From the NCBI RefSeq assembly GCF_037392515.1, contig NC_090283.1, positions 21,271,001 through 21,335,000 of the forward strand: 64,000 bases of DNA, in the 5' to 3' direction. Source of the stretch: Haliotis asinina. Lineage: Eukaryota > Mollusca > Gastropoda > Lepetellida > Haliotidae. Shown one piece after another: positions 4,187 through 44,251 of this stretch. Both the position numbers and the translations under genes were made by a program. Position 1 is the first letter of the stretch. Every line of letters starts with the position of its first letter. The notes under the pieces are model-generated. The model saw only the letters and a program-made list of their open reading frames with translations. It was not told the DNA's origin and searched no databases.

Positions 4187-5115
4187 TCACTGCTTATGTT
4201 TACAGAGGTATTTCCCAGGTGCTGGCCTGCGTTTTCCAATGGCTTGTATAGGAGTTACCGTGGATGGCGGGAAATACTGGCATGTGAGAGACGGTGCGCA
4301 GCCGCAGTCACCATTTTGTTTCCACTGGCCGAAACACCATTCGTTTTCGTTTAAGTACGGCTTGCATGTTCCTGTTGAAGACAACAATTTCAATATTAGA
4401 GTCGCATCCATGACTGCGCCTACACTCTTTGAGTCAGACAACTAATCCCCAGCACACAAAGTCAGTGATTTCACCCATTCAGCGACCGGTGGGGATTAGG
4501 TGCCCAACTTGGAGAGTGTGGGCTCTATTCCTGCATGACTTAAAGGTTAAAGTGAGTGAGTTTAGTTTTACGTCGCACTCAGCAATATTCCAGCTATGTG
4601 GCATCGGTCTGTAAATAATCAAGTCTAGACCAGACAATCCAGTGTTCTACATCATGAGCGCCGATCTAAACAATTGAGATATGTTGACGTGTCAACCCAG
4701 TCAGTGAGTCTGACCACCCGATCGCGATAGTTGCCTCTTCCGACAAGCATGGGTTACTGAAGAATAAATCTAACCCGAATCTTCATGGGTTTAATAGGTA
4801 AAACATTGCTCGTCATGCTGATACGTCGTTCGATTCCCTACGTGCGTGGAGCCCTTTACTGGTTTTGGTTGGTTGATTAATGCCACACTCAGCAATATTC
4901 CATATTCTAGTGCCCACCACCATGATGGAGTATTTCTAAACAATAGAACCATACTCACTCAGCGACTTACCCTGTATGGAGCCGAGCTGCCGTTTGCTGA
5001 CAATCAGCGGTCCAGTTTGTATCCCACAACACTCGTTCTGGGCACAGTCATTATCTGTCCTACACACCCTTTGGATTGGAAGACGGCTCAAGGCATTGCA
5101 TGCCAGCATCTGCAC
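4187..5115 (-). CDS. Prokineticin/astakine-like secreted cysteine-rich protein, paralogue 1 (exons 2-3)
   Basis: Exon 2 is 4971-5115 (145 nt, enters phase 0, leaves phase 1, donor GTAAGT, acceptor CCTTAG). Exon 3 is 4187-4371 (185 nt, acceptor TTCAACAG, stop TGA). The cysteine pattern is C-x5-C-x4-CC-x(n)-C-x8-C-x8-C-x-C-x5-C-x(n)-C, the ten-cysteine prokineticin/colipase-type knot. Visible blocks are CRTDNDCAQNECC, LIVSKR, TCKPYLNENEWC and CGCAPSLTC. The domain's first half lies in exon 2 and its second half in exon 3, exactly as in the two paralogues at 30 and 40 kb; the 185-nt length of exon 3 is identical in all three. Prokineticins are secreted GPCR ligands, and astakines are invertebrate haematopoietic cytokines. 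A classical AVITGA N-terminus is absent, so receptor and role are unknown. The signal-peptide exon was not found and should lie beyond the satellite at higher coordinates. A SINE sits in the intron. Confidence 0.8.
4551..4795 (-). repeat. Near-full SINE-type element inside the prokineticin-like intron
   Basis: Starts GTGAGTGAGTTTAGTTTTAC and runs through GCAATATTCCAGCTATGTGG, GTAAATAATCAAGTCTAGACC, CTGACCACCCGATCGCG and GACAAGCATGGGTTACTG. It lies within the 4372-4970 intron of paralogue 1. A second scrap of the tail is at 4860-4915. Confidence 0.8.
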
Positions 5116-5214
5116 CTAAGGCAGGGACAGTAATTGATGAAATTAAATGGTAAATGGTCCCAGAACGTCAACGCTTTGATCTTCAAAAGATGAGTTAGGG
5201 AATGTACACTTACA

Positions 5215-5690
5215 AGTAGAAATAGCACTAAAATAGCACTGAACTTACGCCAAAAGGTAAACCTACTGGTAAAAGTAGCACTTAACTTATACCAGAAAAT
5301 AAACATACAGTAACACAGCACTGAACTTACGTCAAAAGGTAAACGTACTTGTAAAATTAGCACTTAACTTACACCAGAGGATAAATATACATTAACATAG
5401 GACTGGTAAAATTAGCACTTAACATACACCAGAGGATAAATATGCAGTAAAATAGGACTGAACTTACGCCAAAAAGTAAACGTACTGGTAAAATTAGCAC
5501 TTAACTTACATCAGAAGGTAAACATACAGTAAAGTAGCACTTAACAAAATAGGTCCAAAGGTAGGCGTACTTGTAAAATTATCACTAAACTTACGTCATG
5601 AGGTAAACATTCAAGTAAAATAGCATTGAACTTATGCTAAAAGTTAAGCGTACTTGTAGAATCAGCACTAAACTTACATCAAATACTAAA
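5215..5690. repeat. Diverged left edge of the 42-bp satellite
   Basis: About eleven degenerate monomers of 40-42 bp, recognisable by GCACT(T/G)AACTTAC...GGTAAAC. They tend to alternate in two types (GCACTTAAC/GCACTGAAC), giving an 84-bp rhythm. They grade into the uniform core near 5690. Old, diverse monomers at the edge and uniform ones inside is the usual picture of a satellite grown by unequal exchange. Confidence 0.8.
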
Positions 5691-8600
5691 GGTATCAGAA
5701 GAACTAGCACTAATCGTTCATCAGAAGGTACTCTTACCAGAAGAATTAGCACTAATCGTTCATCAGAAGGTACTCTTACCAGAAGAATTAGCACAAATCG
5801 TTCATCAGAAGGTACACTTACCAGAAGAATTAGCACAAATCGTTCATCAGAAGGTACACTTACCATAAGAACTAGCACTAATCGTTCATCAGAAGGTACA
5901 CTTACCATAAGAACCAGCACTAATCGTTCAGCAGAAGGTACACTTACCATAAGAACTAGCACTAATCGTTCATCAGAAGGTACTCTTACCATAAGAATTA
6001 GCACTAATCGTTCATCAGGAGGTACACTTACCAGAAGAATTAGCACTAATCGTTCATCAGGAGGTACACTTACCATAAGAACTAGCACAAATCGTTCATC
6101 AGAAGGTACATTTACCATAAGAATTAGCACTAATCGTTCATCAGAAGGTACACTTACCAGAAGAATTAGCACTAATCGTTCATCAGGAGGTACACTTACC
6201 ATAAGAATTAGCACAAATCGTTCATCAGAAGGTACACTTACCATAAGAATTAGCACAAATCGTTCATCAGAAGGTACACTTACCATAAGAATTAGCACAA
6301 ATCGTTCATCAGAAGGTACACTTACCATAAGAATTAGCACTAATCGTTCATCAGAAGGTACACTTACCAGAAGAATTAGCACTAATCGTTCATCAGAAGG
6401 TACACTTACCATAAGAATTAGCACTAATCGTTCATCAGGAGGTACACTTACCATAAGAACTAGCACAAATCGTTCATCAGAAGGTACACTTACCAGAAGA
6501 ATTAGCACTAATCGTTCATCAGAAGGTACACTTACCAGAAGAATTAGCACTAATCGTTCATCAGAAGGTACATTTACCATAAGAATTAGCACTAATCGTT
6601 CATCAGAAGGTACACTTACCATAAGAATTACCACAAATCGTTCATCAGGAGGTACACTTACCACAAGAACTAGCACTAATCGTTCATCAGAAGGTACACT
6701 TACCAGAAGAATTAGCACTAATCGTTCATCAGAAGGTACACTTACCATAAGAATTAGCACAAATCGTTCATCAGAAGGTACACTTACCAGAAGAATTAGC
6801 ACTAATCGTTCATCAGAAGGTACACTTACCATAAGAATTAGCACTAATCGTTCATCAGAAGGTACACTTACCATAAGAATTAGCACAAATCGTTCATCAG
6901 AAGGTACACTTACCAGAAGAATTAGCACTAATCGTTCATCAGAAGGTACACTTACCAGAAGAATTAGCACTAATCGTTCATCAGAAGGTACACTTACCAT
7001 AAGAACTAGCACTAATCGTTCATCAGAAGGTACACTTACCAGAAGAATTAGCACTAATCGTTCATCAGAAGGTACACTTACCATAAGAATTAGCACAAAT
7101 CGTTCATCAGAAGGTACACTTACCAGAAGAATTAGCACAAATCGTTCATCAGGAGGTACACTTACCATAAGAATTAGCACAAATCGTTCATCAGAAGGTA
7201 CACTTACCATAAGAATTAGCACAAATCGTTCATCAGAAGGTACAATTACCAGAAGAATTAGCACTAATCGTTCATCAGAAGGTACACTTACCAGAAGAAT
7301 TAGCACAAATCGTTCATCAGGAGGTACACTTACCAGAAGAATTAGCACAAATCGTTCATCAGAAGGTACACTTACCATAAGAACTAGCACTAATCGTTCA
7401 TCAGAAGGTACACTTACCATAAGAATTAGCACTAATCGTTCATCAGAAGGTACACTTACAATAGGAATTAGCACAAATCGTTCATCAGGAGGTACACTTA
7501 CCATAAGAATTAGCACTAATCGTTCATCAGAAGGTACACTTACCAGAAGAATTAGCACTAATCGTTCATCAGGAGGTACACTTACCATAAGAATTAGCAC
7601 TAATCGTTCATCAGGAGGTACACTTACCAGAAGAATTAGCACTAATCGTTCATCAGGAGGTACACTTACCAGAAGAATTAGCACTAATCGTTCATCAGGA
7701 GGTACACTTACCAGAAGAATTAGCACTAATCGTTCATCAGGAGGTACACTTACCAGAAGAATTAGCACTAATCGTTTATCAGGAGGTACACTTACCATAA
7801 GAATTAGCACTAATCGTTCATCAGGAGGTACACTTACCAGAAGAATTAGCACTAATCGTTCATCAGAAGGTACACTTACCAGAAGAATTAGCACTAATCG
7901 TTCATCAGAAGGTACACTTACCATAAGAATTAGCACTAATCGTTCATCAGAAGGTACTCTAACCATAAGAATTAGCACAAATCGTTCATCAGAAGGTACT
8001 CTTACCATAAGAATTAGCACTAATCGTTCATCAGAAGGTACACTTACCAGAAGAATTAGCACTAATCGTTCATCAGAAGGTACTCTTACCATAAGAATTA
8101 GCACTAAACGTTCATCAGAAGGTACTCTTACCATAAGAATTAGCACTAATCGTTCATCAGAAGGTACACTTACCATAAGAATTAGCACTAATCGTTCATC
8201 AGAAGGTACTCTTACCATAAGAATTAGCACAAATCGTTCATCAGAAGGTACTCTTACCATAAGAATTAGCACTAATCGTTCATCAGAAGGTACACTTACC
8301 ATAAGAATTAGCACAAATCGTTCATCAGAAGGTACACTTACCATAAGAATTAGCACAAATCGTTCAGCAGGAGGTACATTTACCAGAAGAATTAGAACTA
8401 ATCGTTCATCAGAAGGTACATTTACCAGAAGAATTAGCACAAATCGTTCAGCAGGAGGTACATTTACCAGAAGAATTAGCACTAATCGTTCATCAGAAGG
8501 TACATTTACCAGAAGAATTAGCACTAATCGTTCATCAGAAGGTACACTTACCAGAAGAATTAGCACAAATCGTTCAGCAGGAGGTACATTTACCAGAAGA

Positions 8601-11600
8601 ATTAGCACTAATCGTTCATCAGAAGGTACACTTACCAGAAGAATTAGCACAAATCGTTCATCAGAAGGTACACTTTCCATAAGAATTAGCACAAATCGTT
8701 CATCAGAAGGTACACTTACCATAAGAATTAGCACTAATCGTTCATCAGAAGGTACACTTACCAGAAGAATTAGCACTAATCGTTCATCAGAAGGTACACT
8801 TACCATAAGAATTAGCACTAATCGTTCATCAGGAGGTACACTTACCATAAGAACTAGCACAAATCGTTCATCAGAAGGTACACTTACCAGAAGAATTAGC
8901 ACTAATCGTTCATCAGAAGGTACACTTACCATAAGAATTAGCACTAATCGTTCATCAGAAGGTACACTTACCATAAGAATTAGCACTAATCGTTCATCAG
9001 AAGGTACTCTTACCATAGGAATTAGCACAAATCGTTCATCAGAAGGTACTCTTACCATCAGAAATAGCACTAATCGTTCATCAGAAGGTACACTTACCAT
9101 AAGAATTAGCACTAATCGTTCATCAGAAGGTACTCTTACCATAAGAATTAGCACAAATCGTTCATCAGAAGGTACTCTTACCATAAGAATTAGCACTAAT
9201 CGTTCATCAGAAGGTACACTTACTATAAGAATTAGCACAAATCGTTCATCAGAAGGTACACTTGCCATAAGAATTAGCACAAATCGTTCAGCAGGAGGTA
9301 CATTTACCAGAAGAATTAGCACTAATCGTTCATTAGAAGGTACATTTACCAGAAGAATTAGCACAAATCGTTCAGCAGGAGGTACATTTACCAGAAGAAT
9401 TAGCACTAATCGTTCATCAGAAGGTACACTTACCAGAAGAATTAGCACTAATCGTTCATCAGAAGGTACACTTACCAGAAGAATTAGCACAAATCGTTCA
9501 GCAGGAGGTACATTTACCAGAAGAATTAGCACTAATCGTTCATCAGAAGGTACACTTACCATAAGAATTAGCACTAATCGTTCATCAGAAGGTACACTTA
9601 CCATAAGAATTAGCACAAATCGTTCATCAGAAGGTACACTTACCATAAGAATTAGCACTAATCGTTCATCAGAAGGTACACTTACCATAAGAATTAGCAC
9701 TAATCGTTCATCAGAAGGTACACTTACCATAAGAATTAGCACTAATCGTTCATCAGGAGGTACACTTACCAGAAGAACTAGCACTAATCGTTCATCAGAA
9801 GGTACACTTACCAGAAGAATTAGCACTAATCGTTCATCAGAAGGTACACTTACCAGAAGAATTAGCACTAATCGTTCATCAGAAGGTACACTTACCATAA
9901 GAATTAGCACAAATCGTTCATCAGAAGGTACACTTACCATAAGAATTAGCACTAATCGTTCATCAGAAGGTACACTTACCATAAGAACTAGCACTAATCG
10001 TTCATCAGAAGGTACACTTACCAGAAGAATTAGCACTAATCGTTCATCAGAAGGTACACTTACCATAAGAATTAGCACAAATCGTTCATCAGAAGGTACA
10101 CTTACCAGAAGAATTAGCACTAATCGTTCATCAGAAGGTACACTTACCATAAGAATTAGCACTAATCGTTCATCAGAAGGTACACTTACCATAAGAATTA
10201 GCACAAATCGTTCATCAGAAGGTACACTTACCAGAAGAATTAGCACTAATCGTTCATCAGAAGGTACACTTACCAGAAGAATTAGCACTAATCGTTCATC
10301 AGAAGGTACACTTACCATAAGAACTAGCACTAATCGTTCATCAGAAGGTACACTTACCATAAGAATTAGCACTAATCGTTCATCAGAAGGTACACTTACC
10401 ATAAGAATTAGCACAAATCGTTCATCAGAAGGTACACTTACCAGAAGAATTAGCACAAATCGTTCATCAGGAGGTACACTTACCATAAGAATTAGCACAA
10501 ATCGTTCATCAGAAGGTACACTTACCATAAGAATTAGCACAAATCGTTCATCAGAAGGTACACTTACCATAAGAATTAGCACTAATCGTTCATCAGAAGG
10601 TACACTTACCAGAAGAATTAGCACAAATCGTTCATCAGGAGGTACACTTACCAGAAGAATTAGCACAAATCGTTCATCAGAAGGTACACTTACCATAAGA
10701 ACTAGCACTAATCGTTCATCAGAAGGTACACTTACCATAAGAATTAGCACAAATCGTTCATCAGAAGGTACACTTACAATAGGAATTAGCACAAATCGTT
10801 CATCAGGAGGTACACTTACCATAAGAATTAGCACTAATCGTTCATCAGAAGGTACACTTACCATAAGAACTAGCACAAATCGTTCATCAGAAGGTACACT
10901 TACCAGAAGAATTAGCACTAATCGTTCATCAGAAGGTACACTTACCAGAAGAATTAGCACTAATCGTTCATCAGAAGGTACACTTACCATAAGAATTAGC
11001 ACTAATCGTTCATCAGAAGGTACTCTTACCATAGGAATTAGCACAAATCGTTCATCAGAAGGTACTCTTACCATCAGAAATAGCACTAATCGTTCATCAG
11101 AAGGTACACTTACCATAAGAATTAGCACTAATCGTTCATCAGAAGGTACTCTTACCATAAGAATTAGCACAAATCGTTCATCAGAAGGTACTCTTACCAT
11201 AAGAATTAGCACTAATCGTTCATCAGAAGGTACACTTACCATAAGAATTAGCACAAATCGTTCATCAGAAGGTACACTTACCATAAGAATTAGCACAAAT
11301 CGTTCAGCAGGAGGTACATTTACCAGAAGAATTAGCACAAATCGTTCATCAGAAGGTACATTTACCATAAGAATTAGCACAAATCGTTCAGCAGGAGGTA
11401 CATTTACCAGAAGAATTAGCACTAATCGTTCATCAGAAGGTACACTTACCATAAGAATTAGCACAAATCGTTCATCAGAAGGTGCACTTACCATAAGAAT
11501 TAGCACAAATCGTTCATCAGAAGGTACACTTACCATAAGAATTAGCACTAATCGTTCATCAGAAGGTACACTTACCAGAAGAATTAGCACTAATCGTTCA

Positions 11601-14600
11601 TCAGAAGGTACACTTACCATAAGAATTAGCACTAATCGTTCATCAGGAGGTACACTTACCAGAAGAACTAGCACAAATCGTTCATCAGAAGGTACACTTA
11701 CCAGAAGAATTAGCACTAATCGTTCATCAGAAGGTACACTTACCAGAAGAATTAGCACTAATCGTTCATCAGAAGGTACACTTACCAGAAGAATTAGCAC
11801 TAATCGTTCATCAGAAGGTACACTTACCAGAAGAATTAGCACTAATCGTTCATCAGAAGGTACACTTACCATAAGAACTAGCACTAATCGTTCATCAGAA
11901 GGTACACTTACCAGAAGAATTAGCACTAATCGTTCATCAGAAGGTACACTTACCATAAGAATTAGCACAAATCGTTCATCAGAAGGTACACTTACCAGAA
12001 GAATTAGCACTAATCGTTCATCAGAAGGTACACTTACCAGAAGAATTAGCACTAATCGTTCATCAGAAGGTACACTTACCATAAGAATTAGCACAAATCG
12101 TTCATCAGAAGGTACACTTACCAGAAGAATTAGCACTAATCGTTCATCAGAAGGTACACTTACCAGAAGAATTAGCACTAATCGTTCATCAGAAGGTACA
12201 CTTACCATAAGAATTAGCACTAATCGTTCATCAGAAGGTACACTTACCATAAGAATTAGCACTAATCGTTCATCAGAAGGTACACTTACCATAAGAATTA
12301 GCACAAATCGTTCATCAGAAGGTACACTTACCAGAAGAATTAGCACAAATCGTTCATCAGGAGGTACACTTACCATAAGAATTAGCACAAATCGTTCATC
12401 AGAAGGTACACTTACCAGAAGAATTAGCACAAATCGTTCATCAGAAGGTACACTTACCATAAGAATTAGCACTAATCGTTCATCAGAAGGTACACTTACC
12501 AGAAGAATTAGCACAAATCGTTCATCAGGAGGTACACTTACCAGAAGAATTAGCACTAATCGTTCATCAGAAGGTACACTTACCATAAGAACTAGCACTA
12601 ATCGTTCATCAGAAGGTACACTTACCATAAGAATTAGCACAAATCGTTCATCAGAAGGTACACTTACAATAGGAATTAGCACAAATCGTTCATCAGGAGG
12701 TACACTTACCATAAGAATTAGCACTAATCGTTCATCAGAAGGTACACTTACCATAAGAATTAGCACAAATCGTTCATCAGGAGGTACACTTACCAGAAGA
12801 ATTAGCACTAATCGTTCATCAGGAGGTACACTTACCAGAAGAATTAGCACTAATCGTTCATCAGGAGGTACACTTACCAGAAGAATTAGCACTAATCGTT
12901 CATCAGGAGGTACACTTACCAGAAGAATTAGCACTAATCGTTCATCAGGAGGTACACTTACCATAAGAATTAGCACTAATCGTTCATCAGGAGGTACACT
13001 TACCATAAGAATTAGCACTAATCGTTCATCAGGAGGTACACTTACAAGAAGAATTAGCACTAATCGTTCATCAGAAGGTACACTTACCAGAAGAATTAGC
13101 ACTAATCGTTCATCAGAAGGTACACTTACCAGAAGAATTAGCACTAATCGTTCATCAGAAGGTACTCTTACCATAAGAATTAGCACAAATCGTTCATCAG
13201 TAGGTACACTTACCATAAGAATTAGCACTAATCGTTCATCAGAAGGTACACTTACCAGAAGAATTAGCACTAATCGTTCATCAGAAGGTACTCTTACCAT
13301 AAGAATTAGCACTAATCGTTCATCAGAAGGTACTCTTACCATAAGAATTAGCACTAATCGTTCATCAGAAGGTACACTTACCATAAGAATTAGCACTAAT
13401 CGTTCATCAGAAGGTACACTTACCATAAGAATTAGCACTAATCGTTCATCAGAAGGTACTCTTACCATAGGAATTAGCACAAATCGTTCATCAGAAGGTA
13501 CTCTTACCATAAGAATTAGCACTAATCGTTCATCAGAAGGTACACTTACCATAAGAATTAGCACTAATCGTTCATCAGAAGGTACACTTACCATAAGAAT
13601 TAGCACAAATCGTTCATCAGAAGGTACTCTTACCATAAGAATTAGCACTAATCGTTCATCAGAAGGTACACTTACCAGAAGAATTAGCACAAATCGTTCA
13701 TCAGAAGGTACACTTACCATAAGAATTAGCACAAATCGTTCAGCAGGAGGTACATTTACCAGAAGAATTAGCACTAATCGTTCATCAGAAGGTACATTTA
13801 CCATAAGAATTAGCACAAATCGTTCAGCAGGAGGTACATTTACCAGAAGAATTAGCACTAATCGTTCATCAGAAGGTACATTTACCAGAAGAATTAGCAC
13901 TAATCGTTCATCAGAAGGTACACTTACCAGAAGAATTAGCACAAATCGTTCAGCAGAAGGTACAGTTACCAGAAGAATTAGCACTAATCGTTCATCAGAA
14001 GGTACACTTACCATAAGAATTAGCACTAATCGTTCATCAGAAGGTACACTTACCATAAGAATTAGCACTAATCGTTCATCAGAAGGTACACTTACCATAA
14101 GAATTAGCACTAATCGTTCATCAGAAGGTACATTTACCAGAATAATTAGCACTAATCGTTCATCAGAAGGTACACTTGCCAGAAGAATTAGCACAAATCG
14201 TTCAGCAGGAGGTACATTTACCAGAAGAATTAGCACTAATCGTTCATCAGAAGGTACACTTACCAGAAGAATTAGCACTAATCGTTCATCAGAAGGTACA
14301 CTTACCATAAGAACTAGCACTAATCGTTCATCAGAAGGTACACTTACCAGAAGAATTAGCACTAATCGTTCATCAGAAGGTACACTTACCATAAGAATTA
14401 GCACTAATCGTTCATCAGAAGGTACACTTACCATAAGAATTAGCACTAATCGTTCATCAGAAGGTACACTTACCATAAGAATTAGCACTAATCGTTCATC
14501 AGAAGGTACTCTTACCATAGGAATTAGCACAAATCGTTCATCAGAAGGTACTCTTACCATCAGAAATAGCACTAATCGTTCATCAGAAGGTACACTTACC

Positions 14601-29710: not shown

Positions 29711-30205
29711 CGCTAGACCCCCCACCCATCTCCCCTTCCCGTCAAAGCAACACGTAAGAGTCAGGCGTTGCCGGTGGACTGGGACACCGCTACCCTTTTC
29801 GCGAACATCTGGACCTACCCAGATCAGCAAGCTCGATTACTCCATCAGTCGTGTTTTGCCACAGGTGTTGGCGGGGGAATGTGGATCCCAATCACACAAC
29901 AAGAACCAGATTGATAAAGGAAAATTATGCGAAGGTCATGATAAACTCGGTGCGCCTAGAAGCATCAAAGTTAGGACTGACAATACGATGTGCCTTTTGA
30001 GATTGACATCCAGTGATCGAAGGAAAAATACAAAATACAAACGCCTTGAACCAGCTTCATTTGAGTGGATATGCGCGCTGTGTATAAATATTCTATAATA
30101 ATAATGATCATGATACATAAATCTTGTAAAGACAAACAAATCACGAATATTGTCGTATATTTCTTTATATTCCAAGTAGACGTATTGGACATATTACATC
30201 ACGAT

Positions 30206-30823
30206 CTAGGGACCCATCTCCTTCGGCTCGCAGAGATAGTTGCCAGCCAGCATCTTTCTTTTACCCCTAGTAACTATGCCTGTGAGGGGGTAGCGGTGGC
30301 AGGTGAGGGAGGGGGCACACCCGCAAAATCCGTTCTGCTTCCAGACACCTCCACACCACTCTCCGTGCTTCAGGTACGGCTTGCAGGTTCCTGCAAGAGT
30401 GAATGAGATGACGAGATAATTTGAGATATCCTGGACGTCTCATTTCAAGTGAATGAGTGAGGAATGTATACTATGGTGATATCACTTACTGAGGATATGG
30501 TCCGATTGATACAATAGGGGTAACGGTACAAGGTTTGTGTTTGAGCGGAAATAGATCCCACCCCATTGAACACACGGACACGTGCACATGATAAACATAA
30601 CCACACACAATCACACGCACACACACACCACACATATCACGCAGGCACTCACGCACGCTCCTTGTACAGTGGCAGGGTCGGGGGTAGTGTAGGCATCCCT
30701 CTTGCTGACAATTAAGCCCCCGATCTGCTTGGCACAGCACTCTCCAGTCCCACACTCCCCATCAGTCATGCAGGTCTTGGTCTTCGGCAGCTGAAGGACA
30801 GCGCCATAGAGTGCCGGCACAAT
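30206..30823 (-). CDS. Prokineticin-like gene, copy A (exons 2-3; no adjacent first exon)
   Basis: Exon 3 is 30206-30390 (185 nt, acceptor CACTCTTGCAG, stop TAG). Exon 2 starts at 30823 after TCCTCAACAG. Blocks: LYGAVLQLPKTKTC, CMTDGECGTGECC, LIVSKRDAYTTPD, TCKPYLKHGEWC and CGCAPSLTC. All ten knot cysteines are present. At the position used as donor in copy B (after 30661) copy A reads GG instead of GT. The next site keeping phase 1 is after 30649, which would add four codons including an extra Cys. The signal-peptide exon is not part of the duplicated unit, so this copy either is dead or uses the exon at 42.35 kb. Function as for the other paralogues: secreted, role inferred only from fold. 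Confidence 0.75.
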
Positions 30824-31142
30824 CTGTTGAGGAGAACATTATAACTCCAACATTTGCAATCAGTGTTGTGCAGGAATAGATGCAGCAAGTATTGGGGAGT
30901 TCTGGCACAGCCTGTTGAGGAGAACATTATAACCCCTATGTTTGCAGTTAGTGTTGTACATGATTAGATGCAGCAAGTATTGGGGAGTTCTGGCACAACC
31001 TGTTGAGAACATTACAACCCTTATATTTTCAGTTAGTGTTGTACATGATTAGATGCAGCAAGTATTGGGGAGTTCTGGCACAACCTGTTGAGGAGAACAT
31101 TACAACCCCTATATTTGCAGTTAGTGTTGTACATGATTAGAT
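30824..31142. repeat. 88-bp minisatellite containing copies of the exon-2 splice acceptor
   Basis: Four starts of CTGTTGAG, at 30824, 30912, 31000 and 31085. Each unit repeats GGCACAA(T/C)CTGTTGAGGAG, which on the - strand is the end of the intron plus the first bases of exon 2 (CTCAACAG then (A/G)TTGTGCC). The array ends at the junction with unit B. Confidence 0.85.
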
Positions 31143-31619
31143 TAGGATATTGGATAATTTGCTGTGATATATACACTAGCTGATATTTACTGTGATATTT
31201 TGAACTGTTTAATATGTAAATTTATCAGAATTATTTACTTGGTTCCCATTTTTAATTTTATGACTTCACTGGCTGTTGCTGAAGTGGAAACATCATTTCG
31301 TTTTCCAGGACTTGTCTCAGCGACAGCTTCATTCCTCATTAGAATAAATCTTCATTATCACCACCATTGCCAGAGCCGAACCAACAAACACACGGATACA
31401 ATTTCACTGTCTGTTCGTTTTGCTTTCTTTCTCATTCTATTCCGTTTTCTGCATTCCCGTTTCAACTCAGAATCGAACCAGGGCTTATCATCGGGACGAA
31501 TCGCTACAGTTTTAGATTGGACACGTGATATAGCATATCCTGAGAAAGTATCGTGGAAGACTTTACATGCATCATCAACACATTCACGGTTGTTGAAAAT
31601 ATCGCCCCAATGGTAAGAG

Positions 31620-32830
31620 TCCCACGCTTGAAAAGTATTGTATTTATTAGGATTGTTTCGAGGTTTCAGAGTTAGGTAATGATCTTAGGGTAGGGGCTAG
31701 GATGTGGTTTAGGGTTAGGGTAATGGTTAGTGTTAACGAGTTTTGATACATAATCATCTGTTCTTATTTGTAGAATCATAAAATTAAATCAGTATTTTCA
31801 ATAAGATTGTTAAGCTAATTGTATTTACCAGTTTTGTAACACCATACCTGTGTAGTAAAACACATTTTGGTGGTGATATTGTGGCAGAGACACAACTATG
31901 TACATAGGGATTTTATTATAATTTTAATGTTTTCTATTCTGTACATGTATATCTGTAGGCTACTTAATAGGTCATGTGTCCCTCAAACCCTTAACAAACC
32001 TAGCCATGACGTGCTCAACTGATTGGCCAAACTAACTCTCCAAGTTAAACCTTTTGTCTAATAGCCTGCTCTCTGCACAAAGTCACTACAGAGACAAGTT
32101 CACAAAGACACTTGACAAATCAGGTTAGTTTAATATATCTCTGTATATTTATACCATTGCACCTATATGTTGTGATGCGTTAAATATGTTCTATTAAAGT
32201 AAACTAGGCGTTTGATATTGTCTAAATATCATCCATTATCTATAAATATAAATATGCTAAACCAGGCTTAGCAGTTGTAAGGTTTGTTTTTTTGTTGTTG
32301 TTAGTAACAACTTTTCTATACCCTTACTCTTGCGCGCATGACATATTTAAGTCCGAATGTGTATTTTAATTCTGTTGTTTAGTATGTGTATACATTATAA
32401 CATTTCACATAACACATAAATTGTAAAGCGTGTTATTCTTAGTTATGAGAGTAATTATATTTTATTCAGATATATTCGTGATACAGATTGTTGCTGTGCT
32501 GTGTCGTCACCCCAGTCTCACCCACAGGGTAGGCTTATTGTTTGAATGATTCAAGTTCATAACCTTTTTTAAATTAGAATGTTTATCCAAATATGTCTTG
32601 CTATATACTCGATAAGATAAGTTGTAACATTGTGTATTTTGTTGTCTAGTCTGTTTATCGATATTAGTAATAAGTATTGCACATTGACGATTTTATGTAT
32701 TATTTATTTTATCATTTCTGTAAATGTTTCAGGGTGACTTATCGACAACAAAATAAACATTCCTTGGGCAATAGATCACACCCGTAGCGTGTGTCTGTCC
32801 TTTGTACATTCTCTACTCTGCTACAACATT
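31620..32830. mobile_element. LTR-like insertion, about 1.2 kb (copy B)
   Basis: Copy of the block at 22.2-23.4 kb, in the same position relative to LINE text. It is the most diverged part of the A/B pair by eye. Fossil, non-coding, family uncertain. Confidence 0.4.
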
Positions 32831-34105
32831 GATGCCTGACGAAATATGACTTCCTCCCTGATCACTGACTTTCTTGTCAAATTCAACAACGTCGCTGTCT
32901 CTCGCAGATTTGTCCTCGCTTACTGTTACAGGATCTATTAGCGCAGCAGTGGTTCTAGTCTCAAGTAGGTTCTTTAATAACATTATGTAGATTTTTTCTT
33001 TCCATTAAGTCCACAATATTTAAATATTTACTTGACAGCAAATTTTCATTTAATCCCCGAGGATCATTATCTTATTGGTTGAATCTAAGGCTGTTTCTAC
33101 ACTTTGGTCTAAACATTGCCAAAATGTTTAGTTATACTTAGGTCTGTATAGATCGCCTAATAGTAAATTGTTTTTGTGGAAGAAATAGCTTGATCCAAAA
33201 CGTTTCGTCATGAATATTTTCTAAATCTACCATCCTTTTAAAGGCTAGTTGTTTACTTACATATATCATGGCCCCTCCTCCAAAAGTGTTTCTATCGTTT
33301 CTGATCGGTCCGTGAAAGTTATCCCATAAGAGATCAGTGTTGTTTGTAGTCTCATCCAGGTGTTTCGATGAAACAGACAATGTGATAGTGAGAGAGAACT
33401 TCACACAAATAATTTAACGTGGCTGATACTTCGTGTATTAAAGTGAAATACATCAGGTGCTTGATCAGAGTCATGGTCCAGTGGGCCTCCATTTGTCTCC
33501 ACGTCCCCTGCAAGCAGTAGCAACAATAGGAGGACCATAGCTATGTTGGTGTTATGTAACTGACATCGTAGAAAGCAAAGAAACAGATACATACAGCACG
33601 TATTGCACTCAGTTTTGAACAAACTGATCAACTTTCCAAATTCGTTACAAATAATCCATGGAGAAAACACTGCATGATACATTGACAGGAGCAGACTGCT
33701 TAAGTGATTACAAGAGTTACATAAAACAATACAACTGAAACTTCCTAACGCCACACGGTATTGTATTATATCATTACCCAATGGCAAATGTTGAGAACAA
33801 TCTGTAGTAAATGTATCCACGTGGCACACATGAGAGGAAGATTGGATATAAACAGAATAATTACATTTTTCTTTACATGATTCGTGCGATCTATTTTAAC
33901 CGGCAATGCAGATCTGATTTCAGGTAGGAGTTAGGGTATAGGAAAAGTGTTTTGTGGACAGGATATAACATTGGAGGTGATATTGATAGACAAATAACAG
34001 GGAGCAAGAAGGCAAAAAGAAGTGAGTATATATACATACAAGAGCAGTATGAACACATAACGACAAAATCATTGGACTTAAACATCTCCCGTTGTGTGGA
34101 CAATA
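32830..34105 (-). mobile_element. LINE 5' part in unit B: N-terminus, 2A-like sequence and endonuclease
   Basis: Same LINE as at 23.4-24.5 kb but with more endonuclease text: SKHLDETTNNTDLLWDNF, FGGGAMIYVSKQLAFKR and ETFWIKLFLP are present here and partly missing in A. The 2A-like motif reads AGDVETNGGP (around 33510). Broken by several frame changes. The reverse transcriptase is not included in this unit. Confidence 0.82.
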
Positions 34106-35831
34106 TCTACTGACTTTCTGGTATTATGATTGTATCAGTATAAACAGCTTGTCTGAATATTAATCTGAATATTACAAACATTTATACTTATCCAGGTCAG
34201 TTTCACATGTAACCACTCGGACTGCACCGTCCTTGTTACCATCTCGGAGTTCACGTATGTGTATTCTCCCGTCTTATGTCCAGGTTGAATCGATTTTCCG
34301 TTTAGATTTCAGATCTCTTGCTGTTTTACAAAATGCTTGTGTGCTGGGTTACGTCCTCGTTAATATACATGGAACTTCGTTTGGTGTTTCCCCCTTGTTC
34401 GCCAATATGGGTTGCAAAACACCTTTCGCCTCATATCTCTGCCAGGATCCGCTTAACACGAGTTCGAATCCCCGAATGTCTCTAACCATGATCGTTGGTT
34501 TGACTTCCCTCACTTTCTCATTGAAACCTTCGTTTTTGGACATCTAAGTGGAAGTAATGACAGATGCCGATTTTGACAGCTTCCACTGTATATCCCTAAC
34601 TATGTTTGTCCTGTATAGGTAGCAACAACAAGGTGGGATAACGAAGCGTCAAAAAGGTTATACTGTGAGCTGCGATAACGTGATGATGAGATGAAGGTGC
34701 GTACCATGACAATTACATTCACTGACACTGGTCACTCAAGTCAGCGAACCTGACCGCCCAATCCCGTTAGTCGCTTCTTACGACAAGCATGTGTTGCTGT
34801 AAGATAATTCTAACCGGGTCAGTCTTAAGAGTTTCTATTTAGAAGACAATCAGGTGTTGTCTAGACAATTTAGGTCATCTGTAGACATGTTTATCTCATA
34901 ATTCTAAATCAAGAGCGAGTAGAAAAACAAACTCGATCTTGGACTCAGACTTGATGTCGAAGCAAGCTGACATTTTCAGCAGTTAAGAGCTAAACGTTGA
35001 TCACAAGAAACCGCCATAGAATCTTTTATTTTATAATTTATATATTTTCATATTGGTAACGGTACCACATATCTCCTTCGATTCACATCGGTAATTCAGT
35101 TCATGTGCATAGTGAATGAGTATTGCGTTATGTCGCTTGTAGATACATTCCGGCAATGAAAAGAGCTCCACAACTGCACCCAATTCAGGAATCGAACCCG
35201 GATCTTCAGGAAAGGCTTAACAAACTCGGCTATTTCAATGCCTGTCGTTACTTTGAGGAAACCATGTGTCTCATAGCAGGGTTAAGACCACTCACTTACT
35301 CACTCACTCACTGAGGGAGGACACGGAGTAAACTCTGAATCTCTGGTAATTTGAGTATTTCTTTACAGTAAATAAAATGCCCAGCAACAACGATCACCAC
35401 CACCAAAAACAACCCAAAACAAAACAACGCATACACCCAAATAAATAATTAAATAAACACCACCACCACCACCCCAAAAAAAAAAAATGCAAAAAGGAAA
35501 GAAAGAAAGCCCCTAAACAGCAACAACAAATCGACATGAAATACTTGACGATGACAGCATTTCAGTGTAACCGTCTTTAGAGTAACCAACAATCTACAAC
35601 AACAAATAACAGTGACAAAGAACAACGACTTGGCATGGAATACCTTATAATAAACAAACCATCTTTTGAATAAACAACAACATATCCCACCAACAACCAC
35701 TACCACCATCAAGAAACAAAATCGAAAAAAAACCCCGCAACACAGCAACAACAACGACAACGACAACAAAAGTTACGAGGTAACGCAATCGGAGTGAGAC
35801 ATAGTATCATCAGTATATGCACAGGCATATA

Positions 35832-36002
35832 CAGTGGAATCTGTCTAATCCGGCACTCATTGGGACTGAGGAAATTATCCGCTTAAAACACTGTGCCGGA
35901 TTGGAGAGCTGATGATAAATGTACAAGCCACGGAAGGGACTTCAATGCCGGTAAAGACAACTTTCTGGATTAGACAGATGCCGGTTTTCACAGCTTCCAC
36001 TG
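35832..36002. mobile_element. Tigger/pogo-type MITE, 171 bp (copy B)
   Basis: Same ends and same TA flanks as the copy at 26284, at the equivalent place, so it was inserted before the A/B duplication. Confidence 0.8.
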
Positions 36003-36637
36003 TACGTGTCTATGTTATTACCTGTCTCGTCGTGATTTCTCTTCGTTACAAGGAAAACACAAACCTTTTCTTTGATCTCACACCTGCGGCGATATTTCGT
36101 GACCTAAATGCGCCCCGATCTCACGAGCTCCGTCTCTTTAACGTTAATTCCAGTCCGTGGCTATTCTGTATGAATATTATATCTTGCAATGTCTGTTGAG
36201 ACTTAACAAAAGTGACACATGCGACGAAAAGAATATAAATCCCATTAAATCACCCCGAGCGGGATCCGCCCTAAGGCCTTATGAAGAATATACTTGTTTT
36301 TCATTGTATTTCTTTTTCAAAAAAATGTTGAGAAATTGTAATTTTATGTTTCAATATTATACAAAATTAAAACAATGGGATTAGTTTCTAGAATTTATTG
36401 ATATCTCGAACCGATGATATGGTTCCGATGCCCTCTTTACATAAATATACAGATTTGACCCTTTTTCCACTCGAATTCAAGATAAGATTGTGTTTTCAAG
36501 TATGGATTTTTAACTGAGTGGAAGCTTAATTCCAGGATTCGATCTAGGACCCTATGGTTAACGCGTTCGCGTGTCACACGCTTGACCCGACTCCAATACC
36601 TCATTGGATACAATGTATAAAGCCTATTATCCTTTGT

Positions 36638-36815
36638 TATATACTGAGGGAAGAAAATAAGGGATCAATTGAAAGGACAAGTGTTTGTTTGTTGTTTTTT
36701 CTAAGGTTTCTTCACAGGCTTTCCATCGGATAGCTTGTGAAGAAACCTGAAAGAAATAAAATTAACGAAGAGTTGTCCTTTCTTGTGATCCCTTATCTTC
36801 TTCCCGAAGTATATA
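36638..36815. mobile_element. Palindromic foldback MITE (copy B)
   Basis: Equivalent of 27093-27270, with the same arms and central hairpin. Confidence 0.75.
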
Positions 36816-37517
36816 ATGTAATTTGTAAAATTATCGATGTTTGACTCTTAGTTGTTCACAAACAAGTAACTTTATCCTAACGTATGAATACAACCTTGAA
36901 GGTAACCGTCTAATTTATAAAAGTTGTTTGCGTCAAACACATTTAAGAAAAAAAAAAGAAACCAATTGATGACGCTAATTATCTTACCTCTCCCATAAAT
37001 GTCGTTTTCTGACTGGTTGAGCCAATCGGTCCGTCCCGCTTACAGGGGAATAACATTTTTTATGTTACCCGCTTGAAATGCCGAACTATGGGAATTTGGT
37101 ATTGTTTATGTTTGGGCTGTTGCCTAACTTCGGTACTTCTTATTATGATCCAGCACCCGTGCTTCAAACAGTTCAAAATTAACATTGAGGTGTTCGGTCC
37201 CGAGGGACCAGTGAACATCTTATATGTATGTTATAGTCAGTGATGTAAAGGGGAAGTAGCTGTGAAAATCATATCACTAGATCACTGAAAATCAGTGATG
37301 ACACCAGGTGTTCGGGAGAAAGGTAAAGGTGTCCGATATACCCTCAATTTACTCCCGTCACGCAACGACTGTCTGTAAACAAACCAGTGATCATTATACT
37401 AAAAGGCCAGTTCTTAATTTTTTGAATGACGAAGACTGTACACGTTCAGAGAATCCGCTGTTTACAGTTAAAGAAAGAACGTCTTAGTATTCAAATATCT
37501 TTTCCACTGCTGGTAAG

Positions 37518-37773
37518 CTTGTCAGAGAGTGAATTTAGTTTTACACGCTTCTAACTATAGTCCAGCCGTACGCGTATTACGGCCGGGACAACAGAAACGT
37601 CGCAAATTGTACCCATGTGGGGAATCGAACCCAGGTCGTCGTCGTGATCAGCGAGCGCCTTAACCACTAGGCTCATCCTGGGTGCAGCGTATGAAGCCCA
37701 CTTCCGGTGTTCCCCGTCGTAATATTGCTCGAATATTTTACATCGTAAAACTGAACTCATTCACTCACTCGTG
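37518..37773. repeat. Two tRNA-type SINEs fused head to head
   Basis: The left half is a minus SINE (tail GAATTTAGTTTTACACGC, B-box-like GGGGAATCGAACCC read from the other strand). The right half is a plus SINE (GTGTTCCCCGTCGTAATATT, ending GTAAAACTGAACTCATTCAC). The result is a roughly palindromic 250-bp unit. It is retained in copy C and missing in A. Confidence 0.7.
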
Positions 37774-37971
37774 ACCAGCTCTTATTATTTGGAAATAACC
37801 CGAGTACTCGAATCTACTCGATCCCTGCTCGCAGCCATGTCTGCGACTGGGTTCCGTCTGAAGGCAAAGAAAAACATAACTAAGCGCAATCCTGGAAAGA
37901 AAAATAACTTGAACAGTAGAACCGGAACCAAAGTGAGTATGCAACAAAAGTTTTATTTTCAGAATTTCGTG

Positions 37972-37984
37972 GTGTGTGTGTGTG

Positions 37985-38017
<33 letters not shown>

Positions 38018-38060
38018 AGAGGGGGGGGGAGGGGTGAATAGGTGTCTTGGGGGGAACCAA
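37972..38060. repeat. (GT)n and G-rich run
   Basis: A GT run of about 40 bp (with one TGTTGTG interruption), followed by GGGAGAGGGGGGGGAGGGG and a T run. Only in unit B; it lies in the segment missing from A, and copy C has no GT run here. Confidence 0.9.
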
Positions 38061-39788
38061 GGATTTTTTTTCGTGGCATGATCTCTGACCTCTGACGCCT
38101 GCGACCATGTAATCCAGTGATCGAAAGAATGAGTAACGATCAACGCGACAGGGAAGCGCGGTGAAATGCATTAGCAAAGTCAGCCAGTCTGACCACCCGA
38201 TCCCGTTAGTCAGGTCTTCCGAGAAGCTTGGGTTACTGAAGACCAATTCTAACCTTCATCTATATCGGTCAAGTCTTGAACATTCAACATCGCAACATCA
38301 GCGAACCGTTAATGCGGCGCTGGTTACCATGGTTACTGGCTGCTTCAGACCAGGGGCCCGTTTCACAAAGCTCTGGTAGGCCTAAAATCTCGTAACTTTA
38401 CTCGTAACACTGGTACCGCCTATGTTACAGTAGAGGAGGTAGGAAATTTACGAGATCTTGTGAAGCTGGCCCCAGTTCTAACCCGCATTGCACAGGCTAA
38501 ATGAGTGTGTGACTGAGTGATGTTCTCACCTTCTGAGTTCGGACCAGAGAATCCAGTGAAGAACATCGATTCACACAATAAGATCACAATCAGATGAGAT
38601 TGACTAAGTCCCCGAGCTTGACCAGCCAATGCAACCTTTAGACCTCGAGCGTTCAGATAAATCTCCACTATACTTTGCATGCATCTACGGCTAGGCCGAT
38701 AATTGTATTACCTCTATTGGCTGGCTTTTTATCCAATCAGCTATCTACGATTTGAAGTTTAGCGTACCAATCACAAGGCTTCTATCATAGCTCACTTCCG
38801 CTTCTTCCGTAAACGGTAATGGCCGCGGAAACCCTTGACTTCGATCGGATAGGTTCTCGTTCAACATGGAAAGGTTGACCAGTTGAAGAAAAAGCTGATT
38901 CCCATAAATCAGAGTCGTACAGAGAGCAAACCTTCGCAGCCAACCGATGTGTTATCGATGATTTCACTATTTCATTATTTTTGTTCCAGCCCCCCGAGAG
39001 CACCAATGGCCTACACGACCTGAGGATACGTGTGTCATCGATATGTTGATTCGAGGCTTTCATGTATATGTCGGACATGCATTCACGTGGCGGACTGTCG
39101 AATGTAGGAATGGCTGAAGGACATAAAGACAGTTTGTGTACTTTCCTGTGTTGAATCTTCCCGTGTATATTCTCACAACAACAGTAAACATACATTTGTA
39201 GAAAGCCATTGTCGTGTTGTGCTGCGTTTGAACTAAGAGTGAGTGAATGAGCACGGTTTTATGCTTTTAACCGAGCTTCCTCACCTGACCTTGAACTAAG
39301 ATCGTTAGACCCCCCACCCATCTCCCCTTCCCGTCAAAGCAACATGTAAGAGTCTGGTGGACTGGGACACCGCTACCCTTTTCGCGAACATCTGGACCTA
39401 CCCACATCAGCAAGCTCGATTACTCCATCACTCGTGTCTTGCCATAGGTGTTGGCGGCTGAATGTTGACCCAAGTCAAACAACAAGAACCAGATTGATAA
39501 AGGAAAATTATGCGAAGGTCATGATAAACTCGGTGCGCCTAGAAGCATCAAAGTTAGGACTGATAATACGATGTGCCTTTTGAGAATGACATCCAGTGAT
39601 CGAAGGAAAAATACAAAATGCAAACACCTTGAACCAGCTTCATTTTCGTGGATATGCGCGTTGTGTATAAATATTCTATAGGAATAATGATCATGATACA
39701 TAAATATTGTAAAGTCAAACAAAACACGAATATTCTCGTATAATTCTTTATATTCCAAGTAGACGTATTGGACATATTACATCGCGAT

Positions 39789-42229
39789 CTAGGGACCCAT
39801 CTCCTTCGGCTCGCAGAGATAGTTGCCAGCCAGCATCTTTCTTTTGCCCCTAGTAACTATACCTGTGAGGGGGTAGCGGTGGCAGGTGAGGGAGGGGGCA
39901 CACCCACAAAATCCGTTCTGCTTCCAGACACCTCCACACCACTCTCCGTGCTTCAGGTACGGCTTGCAGGTTCCTGCAAGAGTGAATGAGATGACGAGAT
40001 AATTTGAGATATCCTGGACGTCTCATTTCAAGTGAATGAGTGAGGAATGTATACTATGGTGATATCACTTACTGAGGATATGGTCCGATTGATACAATAG
40101 GGGTAACGGTACAAGGTTTGTGTTTGAGCGGAAATAGATTCCACCCCATTGAACACACGGACACGTGCACATGATAAACATAACCACACACAATCACACG
40201 CATACACACTCCACACATATCAGACACCCACGCATAAAACTACACTCCTACAGAGTACACGAACGCGCGCACACACACACACACGCAGGCAGTCAGGCAG
40301 GCAGGCAGGCAGGCAGGCAGGCACCTTGTACAGTGGCAGGATCGGGGGTAGTGTAGACATCCCTCCTGCTGACAATGAAGCCCCCGATCTGCTTGGCACA
40401 GCACTCTCCAGTCCCACACTCCCCATCAGTCATGCAGGTCTTGGTCTTCGGCAGCTGAAGGACAGCGCCATAGAGTGCCGGCACAATCTGCTGAGGAGAA
40501 CATTATAACTCCCATATTTGCAATCAGTGTTGTGCGGGAATAGATGCAGGAAGTGTTGGGAAGTTCTGGCACAGCCTGTTGAGGAGAACATTATAACCCC
40601 TATATTCGCAGTCAGTGTTGTGCAGTACTAGATGCAGCAAGTATTGGGGTGTTCTGGCACATTCTAATGAGGGGAACATTATAACCCCTATGTTTGCAGT
40701 CAGTGTTGTGCAGGACTAGATGCAGCAAGTATTGGGGAGTTCTGGCACAGCCTGTTGAGAACATTATAACTCCTACATTTGCGGTTAGTGTTGTGCAGCA
40801 CTAGATGTAGTAAATACTGTGGGGGCGTCCTGGGGTCTGGGGGTCAACCTGTTGAGAGAAACGTTTTAGTTCTTTTGCATAAGTAAGAGTTCTAGCGTAT
40901 GATGAAAAATGCGCACGCTAACAATAATCATGTTCATCGTTTTACCTCGTATTTTGTCACACAAAGACGTTTTTTTTTATTCCTATTCACAATAAGAAAG
41001 GACAACTTATTCAGAACTTGATAGTTTGAACGTTAAAACACTCACTTTTCTGCTTGAAGCAGGACTGACGTCATTTCCGGTCAATGGCGAGACAAGGCAG
41101 TAAGTACCATCTTTAAACATTAACTACACGCCCCCTCCATAACTAATGGGTTGCCAACTGTTTCTTAACTCAGTTTCCAAACTAAAGGTTTCCTGACTGT
41201 TTGCGAACTAAATTGTTTGGACTAACAGTTTGAGAGTATAAAACTAAACGTTACTTTTTAAGGCGCAACTTGACATGCCTCCAATTTCGTACCGATGTAA
41301 TATTGCTGAATACGGCATAAAACAAACGAATACTCATGTATAGTCAGAACAGTTCAGTCGACTCAGTTCATGCAGATATCTCTTATGGATATGGAAAGGA
41401 CTTTGTCTTTTCTATTACACTCCTTTTGGCTCAAAACGACTAATTGCAGACTAACTAAAAATTAATAAACGTATAATACCCAATTATACAGTTGATCATA
41501 ATCATTACATTAGCCCAACACTGTGGATTTCTTTTGCAGAATGTATGTCATAAAAAAAGCACCTGGCTGTTCCTTTCAATACATTCCTCCCTCGCAACAA
41601 ATAGTGAAGTGTGTCAAAAATTTAATAATAGTTTGTTAAAAACCTATTTTTTATTTTAGGGGCATAAATAATGAAAAAAACTCACGGCGTTGGTCTGATA
41701 ATTTAATTATGATCAGCGTTTCACTGAATATTTTATATTTATTAGTTTTCGAGTTAAACTGCAATTCATCGGCCCGCTTTTGAGCCAGACTGAGTAAAAG
41801 AAGCTTGATATTCGTCACCATTAAATAAACATATAAAATGATCCTTTTGCCTCAACGTGGACTGAAGGTAAGCCTTGAAATCCGTTCTGATGACGACACG
41901 TTGCTTACTATGCATCTCATGCTTGGGGTCAGTCAGGGACTGTGTGGCTCTTGTAAGCCAACTGCTCATGGAGGATGGACGGCCAGGTAAGCGTCAATAC
42001 ATGGTGTTTCTTGTTTTCAGTAACCTTTTCCGAGTCTGCTAGTCGCTTGAAAGGTTGTTAGCCCCAACGGACAATCCGTGAGTATGTAAACATGACATAT
42101 GGCGGTCACACGAGGGTGTGTGAGTAGTTACGCGGGTCTCGGCGTTAATTGGACATGGGGTGTCACACTGTGACGGATGTAGCCCTCTTGTGTACATTAC
42201 TTACTCCAGCAATATACAGATCTGTTGGT

Positions 42230-42282
<53 letters not shown>

Positions 42283-42368
42283 TAGCTAACTAAGAGTAGT
42301 GTAGATCTCTTGAGTACTGTGTTCCAACTTACTATTGCCAGCACAAGGACAGTTTTCTGGACATCCAT
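39789..42368 (-). CDS. Prokineticin/astakine-like secreted protein, copy B (complete three-exon model)
   Basis: Exon 1 is 42333-42368 (36 nt, ATG, MDVQKTVLVLAI, donor ATA/GTAAGT, phase 0). Exon 2 is 40325-40487 (163 nt, phase 0 to 1, acceptor CAG). Exon 3 is 39789-39973 (185 nt, stop TAG). All phases fit and give 127 residues. The signal peptide runs over exons 1-2 (hydrophobic to about LYGA, residues 1-20). The mature part has ten Cys as C-x5-C-x4-CC-x(n)-C-x8-C-x8-C-x-C-x5-C-x(n)-C, the prokineticin knot. Blocks: CMTDGECGTGECC, TCKPYLKHGEWC, CGCAPSLTC and NYLCEPKEMGP. Expected to be a secreted signalling peptide; members of this fold act on GPCRs or on haemocytes. A dibasic-rich KRKM segment lies between Cys 9 and 10. 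Intron 2 is about 350 bp, and intron 1 about 1.85 kb with the 88-bp repeats at its 3' end. Dickkopf or colipase relatives share the fold, so the exact subfamily is open. Confidence 0.85.
40488..40860. repeat. 88-bp minisatellite with repeated acceptor (copy B)
   Basis: Equivalent of 30824-31142 with about five degenerate units (AACATTATAACYCC...GCAGTCAGTGTTGTGCAG...TATTGGGGAGTTCTGGCACA). On the - strand it lies just before exon 2 of copy B. Confidence 0.8.
40861..42229. other. Intron 1 of prokineticin-like copy B, single-copy sequence
   Basis: Unique here apart from a tail-like scrap at about 41290-41335 (GTAATATTGCTGAATACGGC). A minus frame of 67 codons at 41766-41969 has no recognised domain. 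I see nothing else. Confidence 0.5.
42230..42279. repeat. (GA)n microsatellite
   Basis: About 24 GA units, 54 bp from the donor of the signal-peptide exon. Confidence 0.95.

Positions 42369-44217: not shown

Positions 44218-44251
<34 letters not shown>

Follow-up and report, generated by a model that had tools for sequence, protein, structure and literature searches.

Here, we describe a 64,000-nt stretch of Haliotis asinina DNA (contig NC_090283.1, positions 21,271,001 to 21,335,000; hereafter the window) that holds genes predicted to encode short, prokineticin-like peptides, together with minisatellites that look like products of those genes' own splice junctions. The locus comprises two complete predicted genes, P1 and B, and one damaged partial copy, A. 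We consider it likely, taking the whole reading together, that P1 and B are complete genes, that A is a probable pseudogene, and that the minisatellites of the first introns were seeded by the splice junctions beside them. The sequence itself shows exon homology, reading frames, a tandem duplication, and the match between repeat unit and splice junction, and a genome search found no other exact or near-exact copies of the units. Transcription, splicing, secretion, the direction of amplification, and function are inferred.

The - strand carries every exon of P1, A, and B (window coordinates throughout):

4187..4371, - strand: P1 exon 3, 185 nt; carries the last six cysteines and the stop codon TGA
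4971..5115, - strand: P1 exon 2, 145 nt; carries the first four knot cysteines; acceptor TTAG, donor GTAAGT
5116..18125, - strand: predicted P1 intron 1, 13,010 nt, for the most part tandem repeat
18126..18167, - strand: P1 candidate exon 1, 42 nt; MAPTFAFGLVLTFL; phase-0 donor GTAAGC
30206..30390, - strand: partial copy A exon 3, 185 nt; protein identical to that of B exon 3
30661..30823, - strand: partial copy A exon 2, 163 nt; GA in place of the donor GT
39789..39973, - strand: B exon 3, 185 nt
40325..40487, - strand: B exon 2, 163 nt
42333..42368, - strand: B exon 1, 36 nt; MDVQKTVLVLAI; phase-0 donor GTAAGT

Ten knot cysteines are present in each of P1, A, and B, exon 3 is 185 nt long in all of them, and exons 2 and 3 are separated by a phase-1 intron in 3/3 copies. 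P1 and B are each predicted to have three coding exons: one for a signal peptide, then two for the halves of the knot. Spliced in silico, B reads MDVQKTVLVLAI|IVPALYGAVLQLPKTKTC...EMGP (127 residues), and P1 with its candidate exon 1 gives 123 residues, including one leader cysteine beyond the knot set. The two proteins are 50% identical over their full length. The exon lengths, strand, exon 2/3 intron phase, and 127-residue product of B given in an earlier note on this DNA were all reproduced from the sequence. Its count of three genes was too high, as A is a duplicate of exons 2 and 3 without exon 1 and with a GA donor; its placement of P1 at 4.2–5.1 kb alone missed the candidate exon 1 that lies beyond the satellite at 18167-18126. 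Pyrimidine-AG stretches end at 18180 (P1) and 42395 (B) on the - strand, 12 and 26 nt before the respective start codons, so an untranslated exon may precede these coding starts in both genes.

The exon homology among P1, A, and B is not due to chance. With B exons 2 and 3 as the protein query against the whole genome (1.14 Gb, 159 contigs), six matches came out at E ≤ 10, all of them to exon 2 or exon 3 of one of the three copies. The exons of A and B scored E 2.8e-29 to 8.3e-41, P1 exon 3 scored E 1.3e-17 (60% identity), and P1 exon 2 was weakest at E 0.0068. P1 exon 3 as the query recovered P1, A, and B at E ≤ 1.1e-16 (B exon 3 at E 1.1e-16 and 63% identity), plus two further matches at E 1.33 and 4.96, both with internal stops. 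These searches score the best candidates only (8 for the B query and 5 for the P1 query), and remote paralogues could escape them. No extra paralogue was found in 264 kb (the window plus 100 kb per side, one stretch excluded). The Pfam Prokineticin model (PF06607) had no match in the whole genome; it also had none in 14 control genomes, and the result is hence uninformative.

A prokineticin/astakine-like identity is the best available reading of the predicted peptides, plausible but borderline. Against Pfam up to E 10, the sole family matched by B was Prokineticin (PF06607), at E 4.9e-4 and 20.8 bits, where the cut-off of 21.6 was not reached; A without exon 1 scored 13 bits against the same model. 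When B was shuffled with its cysteines kept in place, 0/9 shuffles matched Prokineticin and 4/9 matched unrelated families (best E 0.027). The spacing CX5CX4CC, CX9C, and CXCX5C, and the overall order of these elements, are the same in B as in chordate prokineticins (counted by eye). P1 and B are unlike chordate prokineticins in the lack of an AVIT start and in the greater length of the loop that joins cysteines 4 and 5: AVIT(GA) is absent before cysteine 1 in both B (AVLQLPKTKTC) and P1 (LSRLPIQRVC). The predicted N-termini of both are hydrophobic. Counting against the label, P1 had no Pfam match up to E 10. An NCBIfam search of these peptides also gave no match. The identity put forward in the earlier note is partly supported, through the single-family match of B, and is weakened by the sub-threshold score, the missing AVIT, and the unmatched P1.

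Solved structures gave no significant match for B or for a P1/B profile. B alone matched a prokineticin-fold chain at E 0.84, and the two-protein P1+B profile matched Dickkopf-2 at E 0.33, the same prokineticin-fold chain at E 0.48, and six galactose oxidases at E 1-1.2. We call the proteins prokineticin-like, and not certain members of the family, because of the borderline profile score and the lack of a significant structure match. Ten cysteines with conserved spacing occur in both P1 and B, a feature that does not discriminate, since the printed Dickkopf-2 match is spaced identically. This shared spacing, and a Dickkopf-2 score on par with that of the prokineticin-fold chain (neither significant), leave some room for another colipase-fold family, such as a lone Dickkopf-type second domain. 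We regard that alternative as unlikely. Dickkopf proteins have an N-terminal Cys1 domain plus a Cys2 domain; the P1 and B models, by contrast, carry a single ten-cysteine domain right after the predicted signal peptide, with no such pair. The profile search proposed in the earlier note, with prokineticin and colipase-fold models, did list Prokineticin for B, under the cut-off, and returned no colipase or Dickkopf model up to E 10. Furthermore, molluscan prokineticin-like peptides with ten cysteines and without AVIT have already been published (PMC8398477).

P1 and B would add members to this already known molluscan peptide group. The oyster is reported to have five prokineticin-like transcripts, Cragi-prokineticin 1-5, without AVIT (PMC8398477), and the molluscan set also includes CgAstakine and the apple-snail peptide Pc-PlP (PMC8398477, PMC9178244). 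The same excerpts describe these peptides much as we predict for P1 and B: short, with ten cysteines, mostly with a signal peptide, without an N-terminal AVITGA, and in several paralogues (PMC8398477, PMC9178244); on AVIT, the apple-snail excerpts are silent. The likeness is one of description, and the excerpts do not mention junction-derived satellites. Prokineticin precursors have also been surveyed in nemerteans, brachiopods, and a phoronid (PMC8398477, PMC9178244, PMC8557429, PMC11521371, in part). Absence of AVIT is reported as usual outside chordates (PMC8398477, PMC11521371), arthropod astakines are said to have two signature sequences within the domain (PMC11521371), and no protostome receptor of the vertebrate prokineticin type is known (PMC8398477, PMC8557429). 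By analogy with other protostome prokineticin/astakine peptides, the P1 and B products would be secreted and would signal via a receptor.

The earlier note had held that a local expansion in a mollusc would be notable. The apparent expansion consists of an old pair, B and P1, with 50% identity, and a recent, probably defective partial copy. For a mollusc to carry several genes of this kind is not notable in itself, because the oyster has five such transcripts (PMC8398477). The mollusc setting itself is supported by egg-lysin genes: the Pfam egg-lysin model (PF01303) had six matches in the genome (best E 2.9e-12; 2/6 with internal stops) and none in the 14 control genomes. To our knowledge, this family occurs only in abalone and allied snails, which makes a vetigastropod likely.

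Three arrays lie in predicted intron 1 of P1, in predicted intron 1 of B, and just before exon 2 of A; each looks like repeated copies of an adjoining splice junction:

5699..18145, - strand: 42-bp minisatellite; apparent copies of the P1 exon 1 end and 5' splice site; 296 copies by Tandem Repeats Finder (TRF)
30809..31142, - strand: 88-bp array of A, 3.8 copies; apparent 3' splice site copies; runs 15 nt into A exon 2
40473..40807, - strand: 88-bp array of B, 3.8 copies; apparent 3' splice site copies; runs 15 nt into B exon 2

The TRF array takes up 12,427 of the 13,010 nt of P1 intron 1. Between 5200 and 18167, 303 units could be told apart at a match of at least 24/42; the most diverged are those near exon 2, where diverged units reach down to about 5240. 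On the gene strand, the unit reads GTGCTAATTCTT(A/C)TG|GTAAGTGTACCTTCTGATGAACGATTA, with GTAAG at the donor place in 253/303 units and GTAAGT in 221. The last 18 nt of P1 candidate exon 1 match this unit at 16/18 positions. Among 91,583 control 18-mers (18201-64000, both strands), the top score against the unit was 15/18, reached by two. The last 20 nt of the candidate exon are themselves satellite by TRF. The genome holds 71 exact copies of a 34-mer taken from the unit, all 71 in the P1 array and on the same strand, and none of a reversed control. The 42-bp satellite thus looks like amplified copies of the P1 exon 1/intron 1 junction.

The 88-bp arrays of A and B show a comparable relation to the other end of intron 1. 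A 3' splice site followed by a short piece of exon, CTCAACAG|G(T/C)TGTGCC, is found in five of the six upstream units, and the remaining one reads CTCATTAG|AATGTGCC. When a 32-mer of the unit was searched for in the whole genome with up to two mismatches, 5/5 matches fell in the A and B arrays. The earlier note had set the genes among satellites and duplications; repeats and a duplication are indeed present, and the arrays look like the genes' own splice junctions, not like unrelated background.

The candidate exon 1 of P1 is central to this reading. At the upstream edge of the satellite, the - strand reads ATGGCTCCGACATTTGCATTTGGATTAGTGCTAACTTTTCTG|GTAAGC (18167-18126), coding MAPTFAFGLVLTFL. 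The exon ends in phase 0, as P1 exon 2 demands, and aligns with B exon 1 at LVL. A signal-exon filter was applied to the 264 kb on both strands, with the satellite masked from 5200 to 18100. To pass, a candidate needed an ATG whose context had a purine at -3 and a G at +4, a length of 8-22 codons, a GT[AG]AG donor in phase 0, and a hydrophobic score of at least 2.6. Two matches passed: B exon 1 and P1 exon 1. Separate searches of 5116-5690 and 18146-30200 found only two weak, overlapping exon-1 candidates, at 29.6 kb.

Several observations weigh against the proposed exon and its link to the satellite. Because the filter and its threshold were chosen with both exons already in view, the search was not a blind one. 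Relaxing the score to 2.2, with the B continuation, lets two more candidates through: a stretch of 11 residues at 29.6 kb and the duplicated copy of it at 39.2 kb. When the start context is dropped, at 2.6 and with the P1 continuation, 11 pass, including both exons (of the other nine, six are simple-repeat reads). The satellite alone encodes a hydrophobic stretch followed by a donor, so the upstream ATG could be luck, for which our own guess is a few per cent. The end of B exon 1 matches the 42-bp unit at 10/18 positions at best and 5/18 in register; being unlike the unit, it leaves the kinship of the P1 and B first exons to protein position, phase, and LVL. The ungapped match across the P1 junction, 22/36 nt, is weaker than on the exon side, and the genome word search skips very common words and covers exact or near-exact copies only. 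For the 88-bp unit, 11-12 of the first 15 nt are in common with exon 2 and only 3 of the next 15.

Exon 1 of P1 might instead lie elsewhere, with the satellite an ordinary local minisatellite whose edge resembles a signal exon and donor by chance; the prokineticin-like genes would still be right. The 42-bp unit by itself reads as hydrophobic residues and then GTAAGT, a looser filter passes 138 P1 candidates of which all 25 listed lie inside the array, and the end of B exon 1 is not similar to the unit. Yet the ATG of the candidate exon is well placed in its context, and the length, phase, and LVL core of the exon are as in B exon 1. Apart from B exon 1, no rival candidate in good context passes for P1 in the 264 kb, and the intervals flanking the array hold nothing beyond the two weak candidates. 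We therefore think a chance resemblance improbable.

We propose that the intron 1 minisatellite is private to each gene and would have been seeded by that gene's own splice junction: in P1 by the 5' splice site of exon 1 (42 bp, ~300 copies) and in the A/B ancestor by the 3' splice site of exon 2 (88 bp, ~4 copies). The process would start with a short tandem duplication over the exon-intron junction, nearly invisible to the protein and tolerated because the outer, authentic site is still used in splicing. Unequal exchange would then lengthen the array within the intron. As P1 would have amplified the start of intron 1 and the A/B ancestor its end, the amplifications were seemingly independent.

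The P1 array is rich in potential decoy donors. In P1 intron 1, 214 GT sites score 8/9 against the 5' splice consensus, where the authentic donor scores 7/9; in three equally long control stretches, 2, 3, and 8 GT sites reach 8/9 or more. None of the four units closest to the authentic donor keeps the unit donor; two of them tie with the authentic 7/9, and the first decoy with a higher score is found 209 nt inside the intron. In 300/303 units, the array donor is out of frame with the authentic one, and reading through P1 exon 1 meets a stop after 18 codons. In the 88-bp arrays, every decoy acceptor examined (four in B, three in A) gives a stop in the frame of phase-0 entry. A transcript that joins the authentic start codon to a decoy site would thus meet an early stop codon, so that any use of a decoy would lower the amount of productive mRNA and the arrays would act as passive filler or as a brake. 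We favor filler with a mild brake.

A stronger role for the donor array is doubtful. It would be a working control in which U1 binding and decoy splicing throttle P1 and array length sets output, the array serving as both brake and first-exon reservoir. Transcripts starting in the array would then supply alternative signal peptides, such as MVSVPSDERLVLILL in frame with VQMLACNA... An ATG stands just before the donor in about 39% of the 303 units (118 ATGGTAAGT and 96 CTGGTAAGT sites). These ATGs have a pyrimidine at -3, which counts against this role.

The satellite also lies in a long open frame, of more than 4,000 codons for the - strand and of 3,400 codons for the + strand, which could mislead gene finders. 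We dismissed it as a coding exon. Such openness on both strands is expected, because a 42-bp unit keeps the frame and has few stop-prone positions: of 126 single changes, 4 would introduce a stop into the - strand frame that is open, and 6 would do so on the + strand.

Tandem repeats across exon-intron boundaries have a precedent in amphioxus, where excerpts of PMC3087553 name them "mirages" in Adh3 and report them also in the globins BflGb6 and BflGb9. As here, those repeats are tandem boundary copies of 5' or 3' splice sites that often keep the splice signal; RT-PCR (reverse transcription PCR) suggested that normal splicing persists, and the repeats were proposed as a route of intron gain (PMC3087553, in part). 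The arrays of the window likewise span a boundary, with a 16/18 match at the P1 exon 1 edge (if that exon is right) and 88-bp arrays that run 15 nt into exon 2. The amphioxus units are 10-160 bp long, and BflGb6 has 3 and 6 copies in two haplotypes (PMC3087553, same excerpts). In contrast, ~300 copies fill a 13-kb intron here, in a mollusc, and each paralogue has a different array type. Our limited literature searches found no molluscan mirage and no mirage this large, and no search combined mirage-type repeats with molluscs.

Minisatellite units serve as splice donors in human IFI6 (6-16), where two downstream units act as donors and give three mRNAs (PMC4526556, citing Turri 1995). The P1 array differs in that donor use, if any, would be unproductive from the authentic ATG. 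Tandem repeats are also reported to alter gene structure in recently duplicated human genes (PMC2812944, in part).

The arrays weigh more than the genes, as the probable source of the satellite is its gene's own splice junction. Mirage-type boundary repeats would thus be seen in a mollusc too, and a mirage could fill a 13-kb intron with more than 200 donors that beat the authentic one in consensus match. This makes it possible to test how the spliceosome chooses among near-copies of a site, how introns grow longer, and whether expression is tuned by the length of the array. The genomes of relatives could show when the array expanded.

Copy A lies within a tandem duplication with a unit of ~9.5 kb:

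21730..31142, no strand assigned: duplication unit 1, which holds A; right edge inside the 88-bp array
31144..40806, no strand assigned: duplication unit 2, which holds B exons 2 and 3; right edge inside the 88-bp array

A is thus no third gene in its own right but the portion of this duplication that carries exons 2 and 3. Both units have their right edge inside the 88-bp array that immediately precedes exon 2, which left exon 1 uncopied, and B exon 1 lies outside the duplicated unit. Cut into 38 windows, each of 250 aligned bases except for a shorter last one, the units differ by 7% or less in 29; overall divergence is 6.4% (589/9,266), a figure that takes in a poorly aligned stretch near 27.8-28.6 kb. 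Exon 2 of A has four differences from that of B, three of them protein-changing, and exon 3 has three, none protein-changing. The frames of A are open, with no stop. After exon 2, A reads TACAAG|GAGCGT and B reads TACAAG|GTGCCT. Replacement GTs at +4 and +8 would shift the frame, and an in-frame GT at +12 has 4/9 consensus places and would bring in an eleventh cysteine. A is probably a pseudogene.

We dismissed selection on A as an explanation of its exon similarity. Intron 2 is as alike between A and B as the exons are, save for an indel of ~80 nt next to the donor, and low exon divergence is thus not evidence of selection; conversion or low divergence explains it. A ~233-nt stretch of intron 2 and exon 3 (30324-30556 versus 39907-40139) is identical between A and B, and its flanks differ by several per cent, which makes gene conversion possible.

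A weaker possibility is that A borrows exon 1 of B and forms a working alternative end of that gene, the exon at 42.3 kb splicing to exons 2 and 3 of either B or A. The duplication did place A downstream of B exon 1 on the same strand, with open frames and an unchanged exon 3 protein, and the interval between A and B yielded no exon-1 candidates other than two weak ones that overlap, at 39.2 kb. The GA donor with its poor replacements, and a closeness to B that extends to intron 2 and gives no sign of selection, make this improbable, and we rank it below A as a pseudogene.

Further partial copies of pieces of the A/B unit, 79-91% identical, lie at 43588-46883 and 50784-51426 (one short inverted piece left out). 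An additional degraded gene copy at 43.6-51.4 kb was considered and rejected, as a low-threshold tblastn search found no convincing exon remnant there.

Two neighboring features stand apart from the peptide genes. A 330-bp inverted repeat (48986-49315 and 49975-50304) has arms that are 100% complementary (99.7% by blastn) and 659 nt apart; 40/80-bp minisatellites adjoin it, and it has the look of a fold-back or terminal-inverted-repeat element of recent origin. Beyond the window, ~135.7-149.6 kb to the right of its position 1 (L024-L025), a run of long open reading frames of up to 1,049 codons, with an ATPase-like motif, resembles, as judged by eye, an integrated Maverick/adintovirus-like element.

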